NCBI GenBank assembly: GCA_022496185.1
Contig: WTXG01000109.1
Location: forward strand, 58,976 to 122,975
Length of the DNA: 64,000 bases
Direction of reading: 5' to 3'
Source of the DNA: Multifurca ochricompacta
Lineage: Eukaryota; Basidiomycota; Agaricomycetes; Russulales; Russulaceae
The notes below the pieces were generated by a model. It had not been told where the DNA came from. It ran no database searches and saw nothing but the letters and a program-made list of their open reading frames with translations. Each line of letters opens with the position of its first letter. Positions within the stretch are counted from its first letter, which is position 1. Positions 36,114 through 52,905 of the stretch are shown one piece after another. Made by a program: the position numbers and the translations under genes.

Positions 36114-36696
36114 TGTTACACCCGGTGCGGGACGTTCCACACGACTTGTGTGACAGCACGATTCATAGGTTCAGGTAAGAAACCAATAAGGCCTCTTGGA
36201 GTTGAAGTGGGATGAGTCAAAGTCAAAGGGGCGCTCCCTAAGACGATGTTGAACGGAAAAGTACCAGAAGTACTCGAGACAACTGAGTCAGAGATCAAGG
36301 GATGTCCAGAAGACAGGCACCAATGTATTCAATAAGTCAAGTCTGAGGTCTACAGTGTAGCTACAGCGGACTTATATACGTAACTCAATGGGCATCTACA
36401 AGATAAGGATACAGAGTCAGGTGGGCCCAAATATACGGAAGCGGACGGCGTAAAGTCGAGCTTCTGATAGGGTATTAAGTAAGTGTCCGGTCGTAAAGAT
36501 AAGGTGATAACAAGATAACAAGTCAAACATAAGCAAACGTTGCATCAACAAGTACAAAGCGGGTCACGGGGATGGAAGTAAGGCATGTGATGGATCCCAC
36601 GATGGAGACGTGATCGAGAAGTGCAAAGTGGGTGGCAGGGAGGGTCGTCGTTGGGGAGTAGAAAGAAAACGGGGGCAGATGGTAGAGGTCGTAACA
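36114..36696 (-). repeat. 3' LTR of B3
   Basis: 583 bp, tgttacacccggtgcggg ... ggtcgtaaca, close to the right copy at 52321-52905. Confidence 0.95.
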
Positions 36697-41598: not shown

Positions 41599-42181
41599 TG
41601 TTACAACTCACTGTCGACTGTCTGGACAGTGGGTTGTATGCAAAGGGGAAGGGATTTGGAAGTGGGCAAAGGATGAGAGTGAGGGTGAAAGTGCAAGGGA
41701 GATGAAGCGAACAGCTCAAGGGCAGGGGATGAGAAGCCTTCCACAAGGTGGGGCTAATCTCCTAGGTAATCAGGAACCGGATCACAAGTGGACAGTCTGG
41801 AGCTGTCCATTCTATTCCCAAAGGGTTTATATACGTAATTACAACCGGGACTTTGGTCTGTGCACCACTTTAGGGGAGGTTAACTTCGCTCTAACTCCCT
41901 ACTGATCCACCAATGAGAATAGCCCCACTTTTGGGCTTAGGAATCCGCAGTCCGCAGTCCGCAGTCCGCAGTTTGTGCACTGCTGTTTAGACATTGTGGG
42001 GTTCTGTTAGTACTCTTCCCACAGGTCTCCAATTTGGCAGGAGTCCGGCCCTGGTCCGGACCGGCCCTTCTCTGGTCTTAATCTAGGGTTATCTTCGTCT
42101 CTGAGGGTTTTACAAGGTCTCTGGGAGCGTCTGAGGATTTCTGGGGGGTCAGGAGGTTTTCTAGGGTGTCAGTTCATGACA
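41599..42181 (-). repeat. 3' LTR of E1
   Basis: tgttacaactcactg ... ttcatgaca. Contains three adjacent copies of tccgcagtccgcag-type repeats near 41947 and a TATA box. Confidence 0.96.
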
Positions 42182-42197
42182 CTATCCCCTCTTTAGG
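42182..42197 (-). other. Polypurine tract of E1
   Basis: Minus strand taaagaggggatag immediately before the 3' LTR (TGTCATGAAC). Confidence 0.75.
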
Positions 42198-42222
42198 GCC
42201 TTGCTGTGCCACAGCAAGTTTG

Positions 42223-45200
42223 TCAGGGGTGTGGGGGTCTAGGCAGGGTGGGGTGTCGATGATGGAAGTCCCGAAGCAGGGTCATGGCATTCTTCATTTC
42301 AGTGAAGGGGACCCACGAGTTCTCTGAGGCAGGGTAGCCTTTCCATTTGACAAGGTAACGGATGCCCTTTCTGTTAGGGGTGTGAGCAGACTGTAAGACG
42401 GTCTCTATCTCATAATGGTCTTCTTCCCCATTCACAAGTTCTGGTGGTGGTCGAGTGAAGTTGGGTCCATGGACTGGGGTTTCTTTGTAATGGGACAGGA
42501 GAGAGTTGTGAAAGACTGGGTGGATGCGCCATGACTTAGGGAGTTCAAGCTTGCAGTTGACAGGGCCAGAATGTATGACTTTAAAAGGACCATGACGTCG
42601 GGGGCTGAGTTTGGCTTTGGGGTGAGTGGTGCGTATATTTGTCCCTTCCAACCAAACCAGCTCCCCTGTTTTGAAAGCATGGAGGGGTCCATCTGGTCTC
42701 GACTGTTTCATGAGTTCTGCAGCCACCTGGAGGGCAGCAGCTACTTCACTACGGATAGTTTCTAGGGTGCGGAGTCTTTCTTCAACTGACAGGATAGGGG
42801 TGGCAAAATGGAGTGGGGGAATAAACTCTGGTTGGAAGCCATACCAGATTTCAAAGGGAGATCTTTTAGTAGCACTGTGAGTTCTAGCATTGTGGGCGAA
42901 CTCCATAAAGGGGATCAGTTCTGCCCAGTCATCTTGTTGGAAGTTGCAAAAGACACGGAGGTATTGTTCTAGTTCTTGGTTGACCCGTTCAGTCTCTCCA
43001 TCAGTCTGGGGGTGATAGGCAGTGCTCAAGGATGATTGTACTCCTAGCTTGCTCCACATTTCCTTCATGACTTTGGATGCAAACTGGGGGCCTCGATCAG
43101 AGATGACTTGGTCTGGGAGGCCAGTGCGTCTCCATACATGTTCAAGGAATAGTTTGGAGGTTTCTGGGGCAGTGATATCTTTGGTGCAAGGAACAATGAT
43201 GGTGGCTTTACTGAACCGGTCCACCACCACAAATAGGGAGTCGTATGACTGAGATAGGGGTAAGTCTGTAATGAAGTCCATGGTGATTATTCCCCATACT
43301 CGAGTTGGAACTTGATTGGGTTGCAAAGGGATGGGTAGTCGAGGTCGAACTTTGGTTTCTTGGCAGGTGGCACATCCGTCCACATATTCTTTGACAAAGG
43401 AGGACATTCCTGGCCACCAAAATTCTCGTGATACTAGTTCATAGGTCTTCCATCTGCCTGGATGTCCTGTGGCAATGGAATCATGATGTAACTTTACAAT
43501 GTCTCTTCGTAGTTCTTGGGACTTGGGGATGTAGACTTGGCCTTTATGTAGGATTAGGCCATTTTCTAGGTTCCAGTCCTCCAGTCCTTTGGCAAGGGAG
43601 CGTGGCCCATTGTGCAAGATGGTGGTCAGGGCTTGGGTGACTTCATTGTCATGGTCTTGGCAGTCTTTGATTCTGCGGTGTAGAGTGGAGTCATGAGTTG
43701 TTGTGACTGTGGTTTTCATGGCCTGAATGCGAAAAAACTTAGAGTCCAGGAGTATGCGCTCATCATTGTCATGCTCTATCCCCTCTTTATGGTCTGGACG
43801 CCGGGACAGAGCATCAGATTTGTTGAAAGAGCCAGGTTTGTGAACAATGGTGAAGTTGTATCGAGACAGTTCAAGGGCCCACCGTGCTTGGCGGCGGGAG
43901 AGCTTCTGCTTGGAGCGGAAGTAAGTCAGGTTGTTGTGGTCAGTCCACACCTCAAAGGGAAGGGCTGCACCCTCAAGGTAGTGTCTCCAGGTGTCCAGAG
44001 CACGAACAATGGCAAGAAGTTCTTTGTCATGGATGTCATAGTTGCGTTCAGCATCCAGCATGGACTTGGATAGGAAGGCAAGGGGATGGTAGCGATTGAG
44101 TTCATCAGGTTGTTCAAGGATGGCACCAATAGCAAAGTCACTGGCATCAGTGATGACACGGAAAGCTTTAGTATGGTCAGGGAGGGCGAGGACAGGGGCA
44201 GTGGTGAAGGCATTCTTTAGGGTGGAAAAGGCAAGGTCATGGTCAGAAGTCCAGAGGAAAGGGGTATCTTTTTTGGTGAGATCATGGAGGGGGCGGGCAA
44301 TGAGGGAGAAATCTTTGATAAAACGTCGGTAGAAGTTGCAGAATCCAAGGAAGGCTTGGAGTTGTTTTAGGGTGCGTGGGGGAGGCCATTTCGTAATACC
44401 TTCTAATTTAGCAGGGTCCATCTGGACACGGCCAGCTGTGATGACTAGGCCAAGATAGTCAATGGTTGTCTGAGCAAAGGTACACTTCTCAGGCTTTAGA
44501 TACAAGTCAAACTGTTGGAGGCGCTGGAGGACTTGGTGAGTAAGTGTTCTGTGGTGGTCCATAGTGTCTGTAAATATTAAGATGTCGTCCATATAGATGA
44601 CAACATGGTCGGTGGCAAGGAGATCTTCGAAGGCTCTATTCATGAAGGCTTGGAATGTGGCAGGGGAGTTACAGAGTCCGAAGAACATGACAAGGGGTTC
44701 AAAGAGACCTCGGTTGGTCTTAAAGGCGGCTTTCCATTCATCTCCTTCTTTGATACGGATATTGTTATATCCCCAGCGGATATCAAACTTGGTGAAGTAG
44801 CGAGCATGGTGAAGTTTGTCAATGAGTTCTGGGATCAAGGGTAGGGGGTAAGCATTCTTTACTGTGATTTCATTCAAGGCTCGATAATCTTGGACAGGAC
44901 GTAGTTTTCCATCCTTCTTTTTTACAAAGAAGAAGGGACTAGCAATGGGGGACTTAGATTCTCTGATATATCCCTTGGCCAGGTGGTCATTTAAGAAAAC
45001 GTCCAGGGCTTTCTGTTCTTCAGGGGTGAGCTTGTAGATGCCGCAGTCACGCACTTTGGCATCTGGTTTGAGTTCTATGGCATGGTCCCATGGCTGGTGC
45101 TGTGGCAAACGTTGAGAGGCTTTCTCTTCAAAGACAGATCGGTATGCGAGGTATTCAGGAGGGAGTTGGTCTTCTAAGGACATAGGGGTCTTTACTTGAT

Positions 45201-45921
45201 CTGCAGCAATCTGAGTGGACATGGTAGTTTTGGCACGGATATGGACAATGAATTTGGGAGGCACTTCTTCTGGGGTAATCATGGGGTGATCTGTGATTAG
45301 GGCTGCAAAGGTTTCTGCTGCTGCTATGAGTGTCTGGTCCATCAGGGGTTGTACTGTGATTGTAGACAGGGCAGGGCAAGAGGGGTGTGTTGAAGCAAAG
45401 GTCAGAGGGGTCGTGGTAAGGGTGCAAGATGTGGGGCAATGTTTTAAGGTCAGGGTGTCATCTTTCCAGTTTACTTCTGGGTTGTGGCAACGTAGCCAGT
45501 CAGTTCCTAAGATAATGTCATGGTCCCCTATATTAGTAACATAGAACTCTGCAAGTTCTTCATGGTATTGGTCTTGGAGGGGTAGTCGTAGGATTTGGGT
45601 TGTAGTGTAGTAAATGGCTCCATTAGCGTTACTAGTTCCATCCACATTCTTGACGCGGAGAGGCTTGGCAAGGGTGCTCAAGGTTAGGTGATGTGCTTTG
45701 GCATAGTCTTGATGGATTATTAATCCTTCTGCCCCACTATCTATTAGGGCACGCGCACTGATTTTCTTCCTAGTGTTTCGTCCAATGAGTTCTGCTTTGA
45801 GCACAATAGAAGGTGATCTAGCATTTCTAGTCACTAACAAGGATACATGCTCAAAACCAAGGTTATCTAGGACCGCAGAGCGGCTCGTACAAGGAACACT
45901 GGGGTTACAAGAAGTCCTCAC
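42223..45921 (-). CDS. pol: E1 Pol polyprotein: protease, RT, RNase H, integrase, chromodomain
   Basis: 1232 codons uninterrupted. Protease ALIDSGAEGLIIH near residue 61; RT with [20 protein letters not shown] and VVIYMDDILIF near residue 442; RNase H with VITDASDFAIGAI and a DALSRRPD end; integrase zinc region HHDSIATGHPGRW and CATCQETK (about 813-850), catalytic MDFITDLP, VISDRGPQF and TDGETERVN; GPF/WRIHPVF domain; chromodomain YEIETVL...YLVKWKGYPASENSW at the C-terminus (about 1180-1225). All catalytic residues are present. The frame has no ATG at its start; it is open upstream through GGA-TTT-TTA, so it is probably reached by -1 frameshifting from gag. Confidence 0.95.
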   Translation of the reverse strand: MRTSCNPSVPCTSRSAVLDNLGFEHVSLLVTRNARSPSIVLKAELIGRNTRKKISARALIDSGAEGLIIHQDYAKAHHLTLSTLAKPLRVKNVDGTSNANGAIYYTTTQILRLPLQDQYHEELAEFYVTNIGDHDIILGTDWLRCHNPEVNWKDDTLTLKHCPTSCTLTTTPLTFASTHPSCPALSTITVQPLMDQTLIAAAETFAALITDHPMITPEEVPPKFIVHIRAKTTMSTQIAADQVKTPMSLEDQLPPEYLAYRSVFEEKASQRLPQHQPWDHAIELKPDAKVRDCGIYKLTPEEQKALDVFLNDHLAKGYIRESKSPIASPFFFVKKKDGKLRPVQDYRALNEITVKNAYPLPLIPELIDKLHHARYFTKFDIRWGYNNIRIKEGDEWKAAFKTNRGLFEPLVMFFGLCNSPATFQAFMNRAFEDLLATDHVVIYMDDILIFTDTMDHHRTLTHQVLQRLQQFDLYLKPEKCTFAQTTIDYLGLVITAGRVQMDPAKLEGITKWPPPRTLKQLQAFLGFCNFYRRFIKDFSLIARPLHDLTKKDTPFLWTSDHDLAFSTLKNAFTTAPVLALPDHTKAFRVITDASDFAIGAILEQPDELNRYHPLAFLSKSMLDAERNYDIHDKELLAIVRALDTWRHYLEGAALPFEVWTDHNNLTYFRSKQKLSRRQARWALELSRYNFTIVHKPGSFNKSDALSRRPDHKEGIEHDNDERILLDSKFFRIQAMKTTVTTTHDSTLHRRIKDCQDHDNEVTQALTTILHNGPRSLAKGLEDWNLENGLILHKGQVYIPKSQELRRDIVKLHHDSIATGHPGRWKTYELVSREFWWPGMSSFVKEYVDGCATCQETKVRPRLPIPLQPNQVPTRVWGIITMDFITDLPLSQSYDSLFVVVDRFSKATIIVPCTKDITAPETSKLFLEHVWRRTGLPDQVISDRGPQFASKVMKEMWSKLGVQSSLSTAYHPQTDGETERVNQELEQYLRVFCNFQQDDWAELIPFMEFAHNARTHSATKRSPFEIWYGFQPEFIPPLHFATPILSVEERLRTLETIRSEVAAALQVAAELMKQSRPDGPLHAFKTGELVWLEGTNIRTTHPKAKLSPRRHGPFKVIHSGPVNCKLELPKSWRIHPVFHNSLLSHYKETPVHGPNFTRPPPELVNGEEDHYEIETVLQSAHTPNRKGIRYLVKWKGYPASENSWVPFTEMKNAMTLLRDFHHRHPTLPRPPHP

Positions 45922-45973
45922 AGACAGTGCAGCTGTAGGACGTGTTAAAAATCCGAAGGTCCATCTTCGTCCA

Positions 45974-47404
45974 TCATGTATGGTACTGGATCTTCATAGC
46001 TCTTGGTGGCGGATACTGAGAGGTAGTCAGGGGGGGTCGTGGTGCTTGGGGGGGTGTTTCTTCTGATGCCAGGGCTCTTACTGGGGTAGGGCGAGGAGGT
46101 CCTTGACCTTGGATAGCCCTGGTCTTGCTGCGGCATTGATTGGCGATGTGATTAGGCTTCCCACAATAGAAGCAAAGCTTATTTTCTCGTCGATACTTCT
46201 TTTCTTCTGGGGTTAACTTGGTAGTGCGTGGAGGGGTGTTAGGGTTTCTGGGCTGGGGAGAGGCAACAAAGTTGACTTGGGCTTCTGGGTTATCAGTGGT
46301 AGCTTCTCCAACACGCAGATGGAGAGGCCGAGGTTTGGTGGTCTTGCCATAGAGCTGCCATGCTGCATCAAACTCTCTGGCCTTAGTGACAAGATCACGG
46401 AGTGTGGTGGGCTGGGGGGATAGTCCAAGGAGCTTCTGTCCTAGACCTTGGTTGATCATGCTTCGGAAGGCATAGATCTTGGTGTTTTCATCCACTGTAG
46501 CACGAGTAGCATGGGTGGACCACTCTTGGTACCAGTCATTGAAGGGGCGAGTGCCTTGGCGAATTTCATACATGGCTTTGGTGGACAGGAGGCGACTCTC
46601 TACTGGAATGAACTGTTTTTCAAAGTCAATTCTGAAGCGGTCCCAAGTCCCAAAGGAAGGGGGGTTGGCTTGGAGTGCAGTGTTGGTGCGGTCTCTGGCC
46701 CATTCGCCTGCTGGTGTATCAAGTTTAAAGTGGGTGAGGGCTGCAGAGACTCGTCTACTCTCATCAGTGAAGGCACCCTCATTTAGGTAGTAGTAGTTGG
46801 CTAGTTGGGACCAGAAACGTTCTGCTTTAGAAGCTTGACCATCAAAAGATTCTGGGGGTGCTCCCAGGATCTTTCCACTGGAGGCGGCAGTAGTACTCAT
46901 GATATTCAGAGGTGTTGGTGTCTTTGGGGGGTGTGAAGCAATGGCAGTGGTTGTGGAGGCAAGGGATATGGATGGGAGAGTAGGGGGGGTTCTGAGGGTG
47001 ATAGCACGAAGGGATTGCTCTACGGCTTCAAGGGACTGAGATACTTCTTCTTCGTCTGAGGTGATGGAAGCAACTGGGAATTGGACACGGTGGTTATTAA
47101 GATAGACCCACGCTGTATGGGTGTCAGACCAACGGACTTCCTTTCCGTTGTATGTTCCGTAGAATGTGTGGAGGTCAAGGTTGCTGATGAGGTCAATGTT
47201 GGGGAAATTACTGAGATATTCGTTTACAGGAAGGATGCGGCTGTCTCGAAGGCGTTTCCAGTCGTGTCCAAGAGTCTGAGTGTAGTAGTTGTCTCCTTTC
47301 CAGGTAGCAACAAAAGTACGGTCGTCGTAGTCAAAAATAGGGTGGGTGAAGCCAAAGGGGACTTGAGCTAATTCTTCAGCAGTAAGAGGTCGTTCTGAGG
47401 TCAT
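45974..47404 (-). CDS. gag: E1 Gag
   Basis: 476 codons from ATG (47402-47404), the first ATG of the predicted transcript. N-terminal aromatic-rich region (about 1-105), acidic and Pro-rich linker, MSTTAASSG near 170, capsid-type region (ESFDGQASKAERFWSQLANY; ALTHFKLDTPAGEWA; WYQEWSTHATRA), and a CCHC knuckle CFYCGKPNHIANQC. The annotated frame ends at YHT; an overlapping frame ends at SDF-stop (45945), the counterpart of family B KKDF-stop, and two C7 runs in the tail suggest a homopolymer indel between them. The start overlaps the stop of the preceding ORF as ATGA. Confidence 0.9.
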   Translation of the reverse strand: MTSERPLTAEELAQVPFGFTHPIFDYDDRTFVATWKGDNYYTQTLGHDWKRLRDSRILPVNEYLSNFPNIDLISNLDLHTFYGTYNGKEVRWSDTHTAWVYLNNHRVQFPVASITSDEEEVSQSLEAVEQSLRAITLRTPPTLPSISLASTTTAIASHPPKTPTPLNIMSTTAASSGKILGAPPESFDGQASKAERFWSQLANYYYLNEGAFTDESRRVSAALTHFKLDTPAGEWARDRTNTALQANPPSFGTWDRFRIDFEKQFIPVESRLLSTKAMYEIRQGTRPFNDWYQEWSTHATRATVDENTKIYAFRSMINQGLGQKLLGLSPQPTTLRDLVTKAREFDAAWQLYGKTTKPRPLHLRVGEATTDNPEAQVNFVASPQPRNPNTPPRTTKLTPEEKKYRRENKLCFYCGKPNHIANQCRSKTRAIQGQGPPRPTPVRALASEETPPQAPRPPLTTSQYPPPRAMKIQYHT

Positions 47405-48132
47405 TCAGAGCGGGTGCTAAGGCGGTATGTAGTCCACCCTTGGGCGTTCCAGGCGTAGAAGACTTGGTAGGCGGGGCGAAGGACAGCACGATCTAGACGG
47501 TAGTTGCGGATGTTCCTGTGGATCCAGTAATACTCTTCAACTATTCCTGGAGCAGAGATAACAATGCGGAGTCGCCAAAGGAGATTCTCAAAGTACAGGG
47601 GGTCTGTGGTGATACGGTTAGCTTCACTCAAGGGATGGTAGACGTCAAGGTGATTGGCTCTTTGAGTTGCAAGTTGGGCAGAGCAGTGAAGGTGGAATTC
47701 TCGTAGTTCACTGGGGTTTCGAGTTGGTAATGTCCCAGAGACGTAGATATCGGTGGCAGGGTAGATGTGGTTGACCAGGTGAACAATGGAAGGGGATCGG
47801 GATCGGGACTGATCTGATTCTACAACTGGAAGGTTTAGGAAGGGTGTTGATGTCGAAGCGAGCTGGGTGGATGTTGGGGGAATAGGGGAATAGTTTAGAT
47901 GGGCAAGGAAGGGCTCTGGGACAGGGGGAAGTGGTCGCTCTGGTGGGGGTGCACTGGGACTGGGATGGGTTTGTGCTCTTTGCCTCCTAGTGGTGTGATG
48001 AGGGGCAGGTGTGGCCGGTGTATCGTTACTGCTACGTCTTCTAGGGTTTCTCCTTCTATCTTGGGGGGAGTTGGACTGACTTCTTCTGTGTTGGGACGCC
48101 AGGTTGATAGCCCAGTCAGTAATACTAGCCAC
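47401..48132 (-). CDS. E1 ORFc, Met-poor protein of unknown function before gag
   Basis: 243 codons from GTG at 48130-48132 to TGA at 47401-47403; no ATG in the frame. The context ATC-GTG-GCT is identical to the gag GTG start of B3, and the product would begin (M)AS as Gag does. Basic/Ser-rich N-terminal part (RRNPRRRSS), Pro-rich middle, then an aromatic-rich C-terminal part (YYWIHRNIRNYRLDR; YQVFYAWNAQGWTTY). It ends in ATGA with gag, an arrangement compatible with termination-reinitiation. I do not recognise a family. Retained openness in a young element suggests it is coding. Confidence 0.6.
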   Translation of the reverse strand: MASITDWAINLASQHRRSQSNSPQDRRRNPRRRSSNDTPATPAPHHTTRRQRAQTHPSPSAPPPERPLPPVPEPFLAHLNYSPIPPTSTQLASTSTPFLNLPVVESDQSRSRSPSIVHLVNHIYPATDIYVSGTLPTRNPSELREFHLHCSAQLATQRANHLDVYHPLSEANRITTDPLYFENLLWRLRIVISAPGIVEEYYWIHRNIRNYRLDRAVLRPAYQVFYAWNAQGWTTYRLSTRSE

Positions 48133-48224
48133 GATGCAAAGGAGTCTCTTTTTATTCCCTTTTCCTACTTAGATTGAGTAATGTGAAGGTAAGTATGTAT
48201 CAAAGGCAGAAGGCCTCCACAACA

Positions 48225-49166
48225 CTATGCCTGGGGGGTAGGGGGGGTTTCTGGGCGATAATTACAGGTGCAAAGATCAATCTCACAGAGGCAGTGCCGT
48301 CTGGGTACAGGAGAACTCTCTTCAAAGTCCGAGGTATTTTCTGTGGGAGTTTCAAGGTCAGACCAGGTGGTAGTAGTACCAATTAAGGCTGTCTGGATCT
48401 GGGTGAGGCGTTCTTCTTCTTGAGTGACTGCTGCAAGGGAAAGGGTAGGGAATGTGAGCTCTTCTGGTTCTGGGGAGGGGGAGAGTTCAGCGTAGGTAGG
48501 GAGATAAGGGGGGTCTGTGAAGATGGGAGGGTTGACAAGGAATGGGCAATGGTTACGAGAGGTGGTCTCCCAGTAATCAGCAGTCCACAGGTATTCAATT
48601 TGTATGCCTTCTGTTTCTACCAGTCGCCAGCCAGAGGGGGAGGGAGCGGAGTGGAGGCGGATCTCGTCAAAGGTGAGATTAATTCTTATGTGGTCCAAAC
48701 GAAAGGTAGAGAGGTAATAAAGACGTTCCCCTCTGAGCACAAGTGTTTCAAGTTCTGGGATGCGAGGAGGGATGTGCTCTTTCCAAAGATATTCGTCGTT
48801 GACACAGATCAGGAGTGTTTCAAGGGGGTCCCCTGTGGAATGGGTGAGCTGAGCAAGGTGCCAGTAAAGGAGTTGGTGTTGGGAGTCTCGGGGAATGCTT
48901 TGGCAAGGTCCGGACAGGAATTGGTTGTACTGGGTTTGAGTGAGAACTCGCCCAAATGGGAGGAGAAGACGAAGGGGTAGATAGATAGTATCAACGTCAC
49001 ACCAGCCTTCTGCTTGTCCGTCGTCGTGGAGGGTGCTGATGAGGGGTTCTGGGTACAGGAGGGCGAGCTGTGCTTCTCTGTGAAGTTGGAAAAGGTGGTC
49101 AAATTGTCTTTGGACCCGTCGGAGGCGGTCTTCTCTTTCTGTGGGGAAGGACACTATTTTCCGCAC
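48225..49166 (-). CDS. E1 ORFb, Met-free open frame of unknown function
   Basis: 313 codons to TAG at 48225-48227, open from a TAA just before 49166, with no ATG anywhere in it. Charged start (REDRLRRVQRQFDHLFQLH), hydrophobic middle, an aromatic segment (QIEYLWTADYWETTS), an acidic Pro-rich tail and a C-terminal Cys cluster (HCLCEIDLCTC). No known domain recognised. The candidate GTG is in weak context, so the start may be elsewhere, reached by frameshift, reinitiation or splicing. Confidence 0.5.
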   Translation of the reverse strand: MRKIVSFPTEREDRLRRVQRQFDHLFQLHREAQLALLYPEPLISTLHDDGQAEGWCDVDTIYLPLRLLLPFGRVLTQTQYNQFLSGPCQSIPRDSQHQLLYWHLAQLTHSTGDPLETLLICVNDEYLWKEHIPPRIPELETLVLRGERLYYLSTFRLDHIRINLTFDEIRLHSAPSPSGWRLVETEGIQIEYLWTADYWETTSRNHCPFLVNPPIFTDPPYLPTYAELSPSPEPEELTFPTLSLAAVTQEEERLTQIQTALIGTTTTWSDLETPTENTSDFEESSPVPRRHCLCEIDLCTCNYRPETPPTPQA

Positions 49167-49219
49167 CCAAGAACTCTTTTATTTACAAGGAACCTCTACA
49201 GTTATGCACAACGTACTGT

Positions 49220-50240
49220 TTAGAGGTTGATATCAAAGTCTATATCTTCAAAGCAAGGGTACCCGTCTGAAGGGTGTATGGGAAGGAAAGGGAGGGGGTT
49301 GGTGGGTAGACGAACAGGGGAAACTAAAGGGACAAGCTCCAGATGGTCTCTAAGTATATCTCGTACTGTGAAGTATCTTTCTTCTACTAGGACCCCAATG
49401 TCAGTGAAGTTAAGGGTGCCAAACAAAGAGAGGAAGCGTCCGTCCAGAAGATCAAAGCCTTGGAGCAGTACTCTAGCCCCACTGAAGACGTCCTGGAGTT
49501 CTGGGGAGAGGGAGCGATGAAGGCGGGCAATGGAAGCGTTCCAGGAATAGACAAGGAGGCCCTTGGGGAAGGTAAGAATGTTGGGGGCCAAGAACCCTAC
49601 CTTGGCACAGAGATTGATGTTTACAAAGTGGGAGGGGGGGTAATAAGTGGAACGAAGGAAGCGATCAATACGAGGGCGAATAGGAACGATATGGAAGTGA
49701 GGAAAGCGGAAAGAAACGAGCACACCAGGAAGGTAATTAGCTCTATGCTCAAGCACGTCCAGGAAGCAGGGATATTGATCAAAAAGGCTGGTTCTCTCGA
49801 GAACTGACTGGGCACCCAAGATTCTTGATTACCGTCAATCGAATGGTAGATAAGAAATTGGTGAGGGTTGGTTGGATGGTCAAGGCACACAGGACGATGA
49901 AGGTGAAGAGCAGGAGGTGCTGGAGGATGGTCAGTGCCAGGGTGGCGAGGGGAGAGAGCGTTTGCAGTGGTGGGAGGGGGTGGGGCAGGGGTTGGAAGGC
50001 GAATATAGCGAGGAGGGGGGGTACCAAAGGTGTTGGACGCGTTCAGAAGACCTGGGGGAGCAAGGGGAGGTAGTTGGAGGGTGGGGGAGGGCACAGGGAA
50101 AGGGTGAAGTTCTGGGAGTTCCAGAGGAGGCAAAACCGACGAAGGGGGGGCAGGGGATGCTGTGGCAGCTGCCTCTACTAAGGCAGCAAAGTTGAGGATT
50201 TCGTGGGGGGGGTAAGCTCGTAGGGGGGGAGTCTGCTTGA
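49220..50240 (-). pseudogene. E1 ORFa, Met-free open frames broken at homopolymers
   Basis: Two overlapping open frames: a Pro-rich one (about 50240-49810, ILNFAALVEAAATAS then PPLELPEL, TPAPPPPTTANALSP, DGNQESWVPSQF) and a second to TAA at 49220 (SLFDQYPCFLDVLEHRANYL; DRFLRSTYYPPSHFVNINL; FPKGLLVYSWNASIARL). They look like one protein interrupted near 49800. Runs of 7-8 C near 50210-50230 also shift the frame at the beginning. No ATG in any of it. Unknown function. Broken versus naturally frameshifted cannot be decided here. Confidence 0.45.
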
Positions 50241-50312
50241 TCCGAAGAGTTGGTCAAAGGGGAGCTGTTCTGGGACACTAGGGCACTTGTCAGTCACTGT
50301 CTGCTGCAAAGG

Positions 50313-50322
50313 AGACTGTCCA
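50313..50322 (-). other. E1 primer-binding site, complementary to its own transcript 5' end
   Basis: Minus strand tggacagtct, 2 nt inside the 5' LTR edge, is exactly complementary to AGACTGTCCA in the LTR (50515-50524). A tRNA 3' end is the alternative primer, since the site begins TGG. Confidence 0.65.
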
Positions 50323-50324
50323 AA

Positions 50325-50907
50325 TGTTACAACTCACTGTCGACTGTCTGGACAGTGGGTTGTATGCAAAGGGGAAGGGATTTGGAAGTGGGCAAAGGAT
50401 GAGAGTGAGGGTGAAAGTGCAAGGGAGACGAAGCGAACAGCTCAAGGGCAGGGGATGAGAAGCCTTCCACAAGGTGGGGCTAATCTCCTAGGTAATCAGG
50501 AACCGGATCACAAGTGGACAGTCTGGAGCTGTCCATTCTATTCCCAAAGGGTTTATATACGTAATTACAACCGGGACTTTGGTCTGTGCACCACTTTAGG
50601 GGAGGTTAACTTCGCTCTAACTCCCTACTGATCCACCAATGAGAATAGCCCCACTTTTGGGCTTAGGAATCCGCAGTCCGCAGTCCGCAGTCCGCAGTTT
50701 GTGCACTGCTGTTTAGACATTGTGGGGTTCTGTTAGTACTCTTCCCACAGGTCTCCAATTTGGCAGGAGTCCGGCCCTGGTCCGGACCGGCCCTTCTCTG
50801 GTCTTAATCTAGGGTTATCTTCGTCTCTGAGGGTTTTACAAGGTCTCTGGGAGCGTCTGAGGATTTCTGGGGGGTCAGGAGGTTTTCTAGGGTGTCAGTT
50901 CATGACA
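50325..50907 (-). repeat. 5' LTR of E1
   Basis: 583 bp, nearly identical to 41599-42181, followed by the second gtggg. Confidence 0.96.
50552..50559 (-). promoter_or_regulatory. TATA box of E1 LTR
   Basis: TATATAAA on the minus strand, 35 nt before AGACTGTCCA (50524 to 50515), the proposed transcript start. Confidence 0.6.
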
Positions 50908-50912
50908 GTGGG

Positions 50913-52301
50913 TGGGTTGTTGCAGATAGGCACGACTGTAGCTTCTGCCACCCGTGCCCCTTTCTTTGGGCACTCCCTTGACATATGGCCCAGTGCTTTG
51001 CAGCGAAAGCACCTTCCTTCCTTCATTAATGTCTGCCTTTCGTCTTCCGTTAGTGCAACCCGTGCTCTGGTTCTGTCAGCTGAGGTATCCATTGCATTAG
51101 GATCCCTCTGGGGAGCATGGGCAGGCTTGACCCCGAAGGCAGCCTTCCACTGGTCTCGAGTCTTTCCCTTCTTGGTATCGACTCCAAAGCGTGTCTGGAA
51201 GTCGAGATAATCTTGCTGCTGTCGTCGAGCAGCATCAACCCATGCATCCCAGTCCTGGGGGTGGTGGAACTGGATGATGTTTTTGACCAGTGGGTTAGGC
51301 AACCCTTGCGAGAAGAGGTCTAACGTTGCCTCTTCATCTGTGTCGTACCCAGCCCTGTTGGCTAGACTTCTGAACTTGGCCACATAGGCGTCCAATTCCC
51401 CTTTTTCCATTTTAAGGGATTTTAATTCTCGGGCAGCCTTCTGCTTGGCCTGTCCATCCGTGAATGCATCCTTAAATCTCTGGGCGATGGTTTCCCAAAG
51501 AACTTCACTAGTGGTGCAATGACCACCTTCGACTTGCTCATTCAGCCACTCCAGCTGCTCCATTGTCCAGTCATCTACCGCGTCCCCTCGTATCAGAGAT
51601 AGGAAAAGGTTGGCACGTTGGAAGGGGTTAATGATCTGGGGGACGTCATGGTTGAAGTTTTTAAACATTGTAAACTCCAGCATAAATTTCTTGCTCTGGG
51701 AGCGGTCCCCTGTGAAGGTCTGGGGTAGTACTCCCGACAGTCGTCCCAAGGGTGGGGGTATATTTGGCGGCATCATGGCAGGTGGGGGTGGTGGAGGTGG
51801 AGGGGCTGGGTCTGGGAGTTGGGCAGCAATGGTGGACATGTTTTGTTTTGACGTGGTGACGGTGCTGGTGGACTGTGTAGATATCTGAGGAGTTGTCAAA
51901 GCAGGGGCTCTGAACGTGACAACTGCCGGTGCAACTGGGGTTGTAGTCGACGCTAATACCAGTGCTTCTTTGCTATGTTCTTCTACGTACTCTTCTGGTT
52001 CAGAGTCCGTGACAATGGCCAGGGGATTTTCTCTCCATGGTCCTAATCCGAATTCAGGTGGGGCAGGTCCTGTAGTGACCCAAGAGTGTCAGCTGTCCGA
52101 ATATCGGATACGATACCAAACCCTCTTCTCGTCGTCGTATTCTACCGGTTGGTATCTTCCGTCGTGATAGACGTAGTATCCAAACTCGGACTCAAAATCT
52201 TTCCAGGCGGCAGAACCAAGTGTCTGCTGCGAAAGATTATTCTCGTCTCTTCGTTCGATGAGCTCTTCTTTAAACAAGGTCTGACTGCGGCTGGAAGCCA
52301 C
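50913..52301 (-). pseudogene. B3 gag, main part
   Basis: Starts at GTG (52299-52301) in context ATC-GTG-G, no ATG. N-terminal domain ASSRSQTLFKEELIERR, FGYYVYHDGRYQPVEYDDE, then TGA after SDS (a CGA in B4), acidic linker, MSTIAAQLPDPAPPPPPPPP, capsid (FTMFKNFNHDVPQIINPFQ; WLNEQVEGGHCTTSE; ATLDLFSQGLPNPLV) and an intact CCHC knuckle CFRCKALGHMSREC. The last about 40 codons lie beyond E1 at 41470-41598. Confidence 0.88.
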
Positions 52302-52320: not shown

Positions 52321-52905
52321 TGTTACGCCCGGTGTGGGACGTTCCACACGACTTGTGTGACAGCGTGATTCGTAGGTTCAGGTAAGAAACCAATAAGGCC
52401 TCTTGGAGTTGAAGTGGGATGAGTCAAAGTCAAAGGGGCGCTCCCTAAGACGATGTTGAACGGAAAAGTACCAGAAGTACTCGAGACAACTGAGTCAGAG
52501 ATCAAGGGGATGTCCAGAAGACAGGCACCAATGTATTCAATAAGTCAAGTCTGAGGTCTACAGTGTAGCTACAGCGGACTTATATACGTAACTCAATGGG
52601 CATCTACAAGATAAGGATACAGAGTCAGGTGGGCCCAAATATATGGAAGTGGACGGCGTAAAGTCGAGCTTCTGATAGGGTATTAAGTAAGTGTCCGGTC
52701 GTAAAGATAAGGTGATAACAAGATAACAAGTCAAACATAAGCAAACGTTGCATCAACAAGTACAAAGCGGGTCACGGGGATGGAAGTAAGGCATGTGATG
52801 GATCCCACGATGGAGATGTGATTGAGAAGTGCAAAGTGGGTGGCAGGGAGGGGTCGTCGTTGGGGAGTAGAAAGAAAACGGGGGCAGACGGTAGAGGTCG
52901 TAACA
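52321..52905 (-). repeat. 5' LTR of B3
   Basis: 585 bp, tgttacgcccggtgtggg ... gtcgtaaca, then TSD aaagt. Confidence 0.95.

Follow-up and report, generated by a model that had tools for sequence, protein, structure and literature searches.

The window analysed here, a stretch of 64,000 nucleotides (nt) from contig WTXG01000109.1 of Multifurca ochricompacta, contains a young gypsy-type retrotransposon, E1, which is coded on the minus strand. Its two long terminal repeats (LTRs) had been described from the sequence alone as about one base apart, the mark of a recent insertion; indeed, they differ at a single position (50429), and the target-site duplication CCCAC is present at both ends of the element. 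E1 has the organization of a Ty3/gypsy chromovirus, with reverse transcriptase, RNase H and integrase in this order and a C-terminal chromodomain (PF00385, residues 1170-1222 of the 1232-aa pol open reading frame (ORF) in Pfam), the whole enclosed in an LTR pair with a short duplication. It is nested inside another gypsy-type element, the repeats of which lie at 36114-36696 and 52321-52905. Upstream of gag, E1 carries a leader of more than 3 kb, devoid of ATG, that contains three ORFs, A, B and C (Table 1).

Table 1. Features of E1 in the window (a slash marks a proposed splice site).
Feature	Position	Strand	Remarks
E1, gypsy-type element	41599-50907	-	young; LTRs, gag and pol
5' LTR, 583 bp	50325-50907	-	target duplication CCCAC at 50908-50912; one mismatch with 3' LTR
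Predicted first bases of RNA, AGACTGTCCA (self-primer)	50515-50524	-	complementary to TGGACAGTCT; TATAAA at 50557
Intron 1, 60 nt	50278-50337	-	ACA/GTGAGT...CTGAC...CCCTAG/TG; spans LTR end and primer site
Primer binding site, TGGACAGTCT	50313-50322	-	two bases beyond 5' LTR end
ORF A	49220-50277	-	dN/dS; two frame breaks in E1 copy
Intron 2, 63 nt	49154-49216	-	ACA/GTACGT...AAAATAG/TG; just 3' of ORF A stop; missing in three copies
ORF B, 309 aa from spliced AUG	48225-49153	-	dN/dS; no internal Met
ORF C, 243 aa from GUG 48132 (AUCGUGGCU)	47401-48132	-	no internal Met; stop overlaps gag AUG (AATGA)
gag	45974-47404	-	Pfam Retrotrans_gag and zinc knuckle; AUG1 at 47404, weak context UGA AUG A
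N-terminal extension of long Gag	46901-47401	-	no ATG in any frame in E1 copy
AUG2, start of short Gag	46898-46900	-	AUC AUG A, A at -3
pol frame	42223-45993	-	protease, reverse transcriptase, RNase H, integrase, chromodomain (Pfam)
3' LTR, 583 bp	41599-42181	-	pair of 5' LTR; CCCAC on both sides of element

The beginning of the RNA is predicted from a 10-nt complement between AGACTGTCCA and TGGACAGTCT, that is, from the very match that would make the RNA its own primer. As self-primed elements use the 5' end of their RNA as primer (PMC4600332), this supports 50524 as the RNA start, and the ATG at 50536 would therefore fall outside the RNA. E1 would in this respect resemble the self-primed Ty3 elements of the Tf1/Tj1 type, in which the 5' end of the RNA can pair with a primer site located downstream of the 5' LTR; unlike in E1, a leader with several ORFs is not described for them in the portions of the source that we cite (PMC4600332).

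Between 50524 and 47405 (3,120 nt), the sense strand contains no ATG in any frame. The sequence-only reading had pointed this out and expected tens of them, and 2,000 dinucleotide-preserving shuffles agree, with 27.1 ± 4.4 ATG (minimum 12). ATG is the sole triplet at zero by this measure, and the near-cognate codons are not avoided (CTG, 66 versus 66.9 expected; GTG, 32 versus 25.9; ACG, 32 versus 20.7), for which reason base composition alone was rejected as the cause. The full ATG-free run, from 50536 to 47404, measures 3,132 nt; the runner-up in the window is 791 nt long on the plus strand and 565 nt on the minus strand. When the synonymous codons of four pieces of A, B and C were shuffled, so that the proteins stayed fixed, the four jointly still gave 9.2 ± 2.4 ATG and never fewer than 2 in 2,000 shuffles; taken singly, the pieces are weaker, with zero ATG in 43%, 1.8%, 1.2% and 4.6% of the shuffles. 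The upstream ORFs are thus free of internal AUG in any frame, as in rice tungro bacilliform virus (RTBV). The ATG-free state extends 504 nt beyond the gag ATG, to the second in-frame ATG at 46900; the avoidance is absent from gag downstream of this point (17 ATG versus a shuffle mean of 12.3) and from pol (79 versus 53.1). No unusual structure was seen in the leader (mean z of 0.20; -0.163 per nt versus -0.186 in gag-pol).

The sequence-only reading had attributed this absence to selection and proposed a comparison of the family across the genome. We collected 43 distinct copies, out of at least 125 scored candidates, from the 53.8-Mb assembly (605 contigs); these were retrieved by their leader sequence, so that copies lacking the whole leader could not turn up. 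The entire stretch 50260-47405 is ATG-free in nine of the 43. Counting ATG in sequence homologous to E1 was done on 41 copies, after dropping two with fewer than 1,500 homologous columns. Among the 15 copies with a CpG observed/expected ratio of at least 0.5, 12 have no ATG and the other three have 1, 1 and 2, while each of the 12 copies with a ratio below 0.2 has 7-26. Over the 41 copies, ATG number increases as copies decay (Spearman -0.93 with the CpG ratio), and for 228 of the 294 gained ATGs the corresponding triplet of E1 is ACG; this gain, mostly at ACG sites in CpG-poor copies, is therefore read as CpG decay once selection has ended.

Comparing young copies with each other leads to the same point. 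Copy C12 differs from C153, C103 and C127 by 389-392 substitutions without a single new ATG, when 9.6-10.4 are expected under a same-base null and 6.7-8.0 under a triplet-context null; these three pairs draw on two lineages. C153 and C103 are 290 substitutions apart, again with no new ATG (7.8 or 3.5 expected, respectively), and C12 and C179 are 375 apart with one (9.4 or 7.1 expected). The lack of ATG in the leader is a product of selection, as had been proposed. That chance or base composition would explain it is so improbable that we set it aside: the sense strand is indeed C-rich and G-poor, but no shuffle among the 2,000 fell below 12 ATG, and lineages about 14% apart are ATG-free in the leader too.

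In C238, C566 and C482 (L036, L026 and L028), a common deletion joins 47922 to about 45173, and the pol part is 99% identical to that of E1; their homologous leader sequence has no ATG, and ATGs occur only beyond the shared junction. They probably represent a mobile, non-autonomous derivative that keeps ATG-free A and B. In C54, C263, C153 and C589 (L035, L049, L051 and L024), compared with window positions 50624-46700, the start of gag is 95-100% identical to that of E1 and the leader up to 26% different, as though recombination had swapped the leader en bloc. Six further copies have ORF C and no listed match to ORF B. Their upstream sequence is ATG-rich, and the E1-like sequence starts at six points between 48475 and 48237; the upstream parts of four match other repeats of the window, and those of L064 and L067 have short matches or none. 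These six are taken for truncated or interrupted copies.

The leader had been said to contain three sizeable open frames free of Met. The Met-free part of this description holds; the frames themselves had to be redrawn as ORFs A, B and C, with A put out of frame twice in E1. Substitutions in all three fall mostly at third positions, and the ratio of nonsynonymous to synonymous substitution rates (dN/dS) is low: 0.20-0.32 in 8 of 10 pairs for A (0.37 and 0.87 in the remaining two), 0.08-0.21 in 12 of 15 pairs for B (0.41, 0.66 and 0.79 in the others, all close copies), and 0.03-0.08 in 5 of 6 pairs for C, the sixth being undefined. Judged by these substitutions, A, B and C have been maintained as proteins between lineages. 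ORF A reaches at least 340 aa from stop to stop in 12 of the 15 frames listed from other copies; a programmed frameshift between its two halves was considered and rejected, because in other copies a single frame stays open through this position. No relatives of ORF B were found in the protein collection. The C-run that ends ORF B (48225-48280) varies among close copies, so that B either ends in PQA or continues to ...GIVLWRPSAFDTYLPSHYSI. ORF C has two metagenomic relatives, P0121 and P0122 (36-44% identity), with no Met in 220 and 232 aa; P0121 has 17 member sequences, and its longest metagenome contig is of 321,198 bases.

How A and B would be translated is suggested by the junction between them. 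In E1, this junction reads CTCTAAACA/GTACGT...AAAATAG/TGTCC, and removal from GT to AG (intron 2) would join the A of ACA to TG, thereby writing ACA/UG, with an AUG that has A at -3, at the start of ORF B. Three copies lack this very segment, and their junctions read ...CTCTAAACATGTCC... or ...CTCTAAAACATGTCT...: the intron is precisely absent from C105, and absent but for one extra A from C590 and C281, the flanking sequence placing C105 in a lineage different from that of the other two. When the whole genome was searched for the spliced pattern, C105, C590 and C281 were found with 0, 1 and 1 mismatches, along with three other sites at 3 mismatches; the reversed control gave 3. These intron-less copies are therefore read as splicing of the element RNA followed by reverse transcription, and they show that intron 2 was removed from an RNA that was copied back, hence that RNA splicing takes place upstream of an accessory ORF. 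The acceptor AG/TG of B is retained in 40 of 45 copies, all 40 of which have a donor-like A/GTA string at most 75 nt upstream (GTACGT in 26, GTACAT in 10, GTATGT in 3 and GTACTT in 1). Intron 2 is therefore ancestral: the acceptor and the donor-like string occur together in all 40, and the acceptor-bearing copies include C116, C134 and C67, which are diverged.

The start of ORF A has the same layout. The sites of intron 1 are TCGACA/GTGAGT, CTGAC and CCCTAG/TGTCCCAG, and its removal would give ACA/UG at ORF A, with G at -3 of the AUG thus created. In the 25 copies (of 45) that could be anchored on both flanks, donor and acceptor are always intact and the branch-like CTGAC is altered in three (C116, C134 and C258); the intron, 60 nt long in E1, measures 42-62 nt in the other copies. 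The leader contains only two GTRNGT strings, each in the form ACA/GT and each in a position to create an AUG, one for A and one for B; the third such string, at 47111, is inside gag. Likewise, among the eight YAG/TG sites found in 50540-46900, only those of A and B open frames of more than 40 aa. No retrocopy without intron 1 was found in the genome; since intron 1 contains the primer site, RNA from which it has been spliced should leave no copies, as is seen. We thus hold splice-written start codons to be firm for B and, by analogy, plausible for A.

ORF C does not follow this scheme. A splice-made AUG was sought for it and rejected, as no YAG/TG site opens its frame, the one at 48224 giving 18 codons only. 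In the 39 copies (of 45) in which the distance could be read, an upstream stop precedes GUG 48132 by 31-36 nt in all three phases; translation of C must therefore begin at or after this point, and a reading of C from the upstream stop was discarded, the frame upstream of the GUG not being conserved. Around the GUG, position -3 is A and position +4 is G, a context shared in 50524-46890 by only 3 of 35 GTG, 3 of 74 CTG and 2 of 41 ACG. The codon is GTG in 35 of 42 aligned copies and ATG in seven; the latter are attributed to CpG decay because all seven are preceded by C. With moderate confidence, we propose GUG 48132 as the likeliest start of ORF C, hence a non-AUG start, which would fit a near-cognate start such as that of the first upstream ORF of RTBV; for A and B, we propose a splice-made AUG instead.

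The stop codon of C overlaps AUG1 of gag, which has U at -3. The extension between AUG1 and AUG2 forms over its residues 1-110 a confident, mostly beta predicted domain, for which no confident match was found. We fetched 120 of 140 relatives of Gag found; the capsid-core motif was recognized in 101 and not in 19, and 59 of the 101 are long and 42 short. One has to keep in mind that these relatives were seen as proteins, so that Met counts cover the gag frame. From residue 2 to 30 residues before the capsid core, 53 of the 59 long forms have no Met; altogether, the extensions contain 8 Met in 12,470 residues, against 253.7 expected from the rest of Gag. A Met is found 9-27 residues before the core in all 59 long relatives, and the 42 short forms start 4-20 residues before it. 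These protein sequences indicate that the wider group has in common a second Gag start, preceded by a Met-poor stretch.

Taken together, we consider it likely that E1 makes one transcript whose alternative uses would be set by splicing of very short introns. On the unspliced RNA, ribosomes would scan 3.1 kb without meeting an AUG and arrive at gag, where some would initiate at the weak AUG1 (long Gag) and others would continue to AUG2 (short Gag); RNA retaining intron 1 would also retain the primer site and be usable as genome. Removal of intron 1 would create the first AUG, at ORF A, and removal of intron 2 the same ACA/UG joint at ORF B; ORF C, just 5' of gag, would most likely be initiated at its GUG on the unspliced RNA. 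As A and B lack a start codon until splicing, they could not divert ribosomes from gag on unspliced RNA. Within this scheme, we infer the scanning, the removal of intron 1, initiation of C at its GUG and what the three leader proteins do. The sequence-only reading had envisaged either very long scanning or translation of the leader by non-AUG initiation, reinitiation or frameshifting: long scanning stands, as the simplest use of an AUG-free unspliced RNA, and non-AUG initiation probably applies to C only; A and B need neither a non-AUG start nor a frameshift, since each would gain its AUG once an intron of about 60-67 nt is cut out. It had also named a spliced leader lacking the region as an observation that would speak against it; we saw small introns only, among copies fetched by leader sequence, a search that would miss leaderless ones. 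We find it somewhat more probable than its contrary that the scheme extends to a whole retrotransposon clade, in which genomic RNA would be AUG-free over more than 3 kb, with three Met-free accessory genes, two of them with an A/UG split over short introns; splicing, and not a promoter or a frameshift, would then choose between genome/Gag-Pol RNA and accessory messenger RNA (mRNA), with a GUG-started gene and two Gag starts on the unspliced RNA.

A number of observations weigh against this scheme. The case for splicing of intron 1 comes from its sites alone; the losses of intron 2 in C590 and C281 may be a single event, its branch site is not evident in E1 (the CTAAC of other lineages is far from the acceptor), and each of the three intron-less copies has stops in its B frame. 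A splice-made AUG is lacking for ORF C, so that the scheme does not cover all three ORFs, and CUG 48102, which shares both frame and context with the GUG, is an alternative candidate for its start. In gag, the gap between AUG1 and AUG2 is near 500 nt in only 11 of the 30 copies of this genome that were read; an ATG occurs within 300 nt in the other 19, mostly decayed, although the young C229, C22a and C127 are among them, and the synonymous test of this interval is weak on its own (zero ATG in 6.5% of shuffles). Finally, intact frames are a minority: from the created AUG, ORF A reaches at least 300 aa in only 7 of 37 copies and is broken within 34 aa in 13, young ones included (33 aa in C22a; 115 aa in the window copy), ORF B reaches at least 300 aa in 14 of 40, and ORF C at least 239 aa from its GUG in 11 of 42. 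The breaks in A fall in stretches rich in C runs and could stem from homopolymer-length errors in the assembly, from genuine slippage or from A being lost. These frame breaks, chiefly those in A, are the reason why we hold both the scheme and its extension to the clade less firmly.

Could the leader ORFs be reached without splicing? By leaky scanning of the RTBV kind, A, B and C would all start at near-cognate GUG codons (50278, 49154 and 48132) of the unspliced RNA, the loss of intron 2 being a rare side product. There is indeed a GUG at all three starts, in a leader that is AUG-free as around ORFs I-II of RTBV in the account drawn on here (PMC5902531); but the GTG of A and B is the form that an AG/TG acceptor must have, matching ACA/GTRNGT donors are rightly placed, the GUG of A has C at -3, and C105, from a second lineage, lacks precisely intron 2, all of which makes this reading unlikely in our eyes.

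The other possibilities leave the leader unscanned. We give little credence to a gag translated from a separate RNA, arising from a promoter near gag or from a U5 donor spliced to a site near gag: U5 does contain a strong donor, but nothing would then clear ATG from all frames of 3.1 kb, where selection is plain, and the 45 aligned copies, all fetched by leader sequence, show no large GT-AG deletion of the leader. Slightly less credible still is internal entry or shunting past the leader, with AUG avoided for some other reason; a 3.1-kb scan admittedly far exceeds the approximately 900 nt of RTBV (PMC5902531), but no unusual structure was seen, and scanning leads one to expect avoidance in every frame. 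Splicing of short introns on a scanned leader remains the reading that we prefer.

Parts of this scheme have counterparts elsewhere, which we compare on the basis of the published portions cited. The polycistronic RNA of RTBV (Caulimoviridae) is scanned leakily over about 900 nt and has an AUU start, and splicing fuses an upstream ORF of its leader to ORF IV; like E1, it has long ORFs without internal AUG and with weak starts upstream of the main polyprotein, and its spliced RNA serves another ORF (P4), as proposed for E1 (PMC5902531). In contrast, the leader of E1 is 3.1 kb long, and its splicing would itself write the AUG of the upstream ORFs. In BARE1 and copia retrotransposons, splicing determines the RNA pools, and a small facultative intron also sets what a BARE1 RNA encodes; the 104 nt spliced out of BARE1, however, lie immediately beyond gag, and their loss makes a stop codon, whereas E1 would make a start codon upstream of gag (PMC3735527). 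A splice-made start codon is not described for RTBV or BARE1 in the parts of these two sources that we cite (PMC5902531, PMC3735527). Human L1 provides, with its spliced integrated retrotransposed elements (SpIREs), genomic copies without an intra-leader intron, the same mark of element-RNA splicing; there, splicing lowers promoter activity or spoils ORF1p, whereas the sites of E1 are conserved and would build start codons (PMC5860796). In S. cerevisiae GCR1, the start codon differs between the spliced and the unspliced RNA; one start codon lies within exon 1 and the other within the intron, unlike the AUG of E1, which would be split across the intron (PMC7826247).

If the scheme is true, inefficient splicing would be all that is needed for a simple switch between a genome/Gag-Pol message and an accessory message, and the accessory genes would be kept silent on genomic RNA; with the primer site located in intron 1, production of protein A would withdraw that RNA from replication, and E1 would offer a natural example of ribosomes scanning more than 3 kb. 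Such genes easily escape annotation in which an ATG is obligatory, so that accessory genes of other elements may be overlooked.

Three minor observations concern the surroundings of these features. At the gag-pol boundary (45945-45993), a third frame, short and containing two Met (MMDEDGPSDF), overlaps the stop codon of gag. No Met occurs among the first 100 residues of the pol frame. A Gag-like ORF at 50895-51899 belongs to the outer element that E1 entered.

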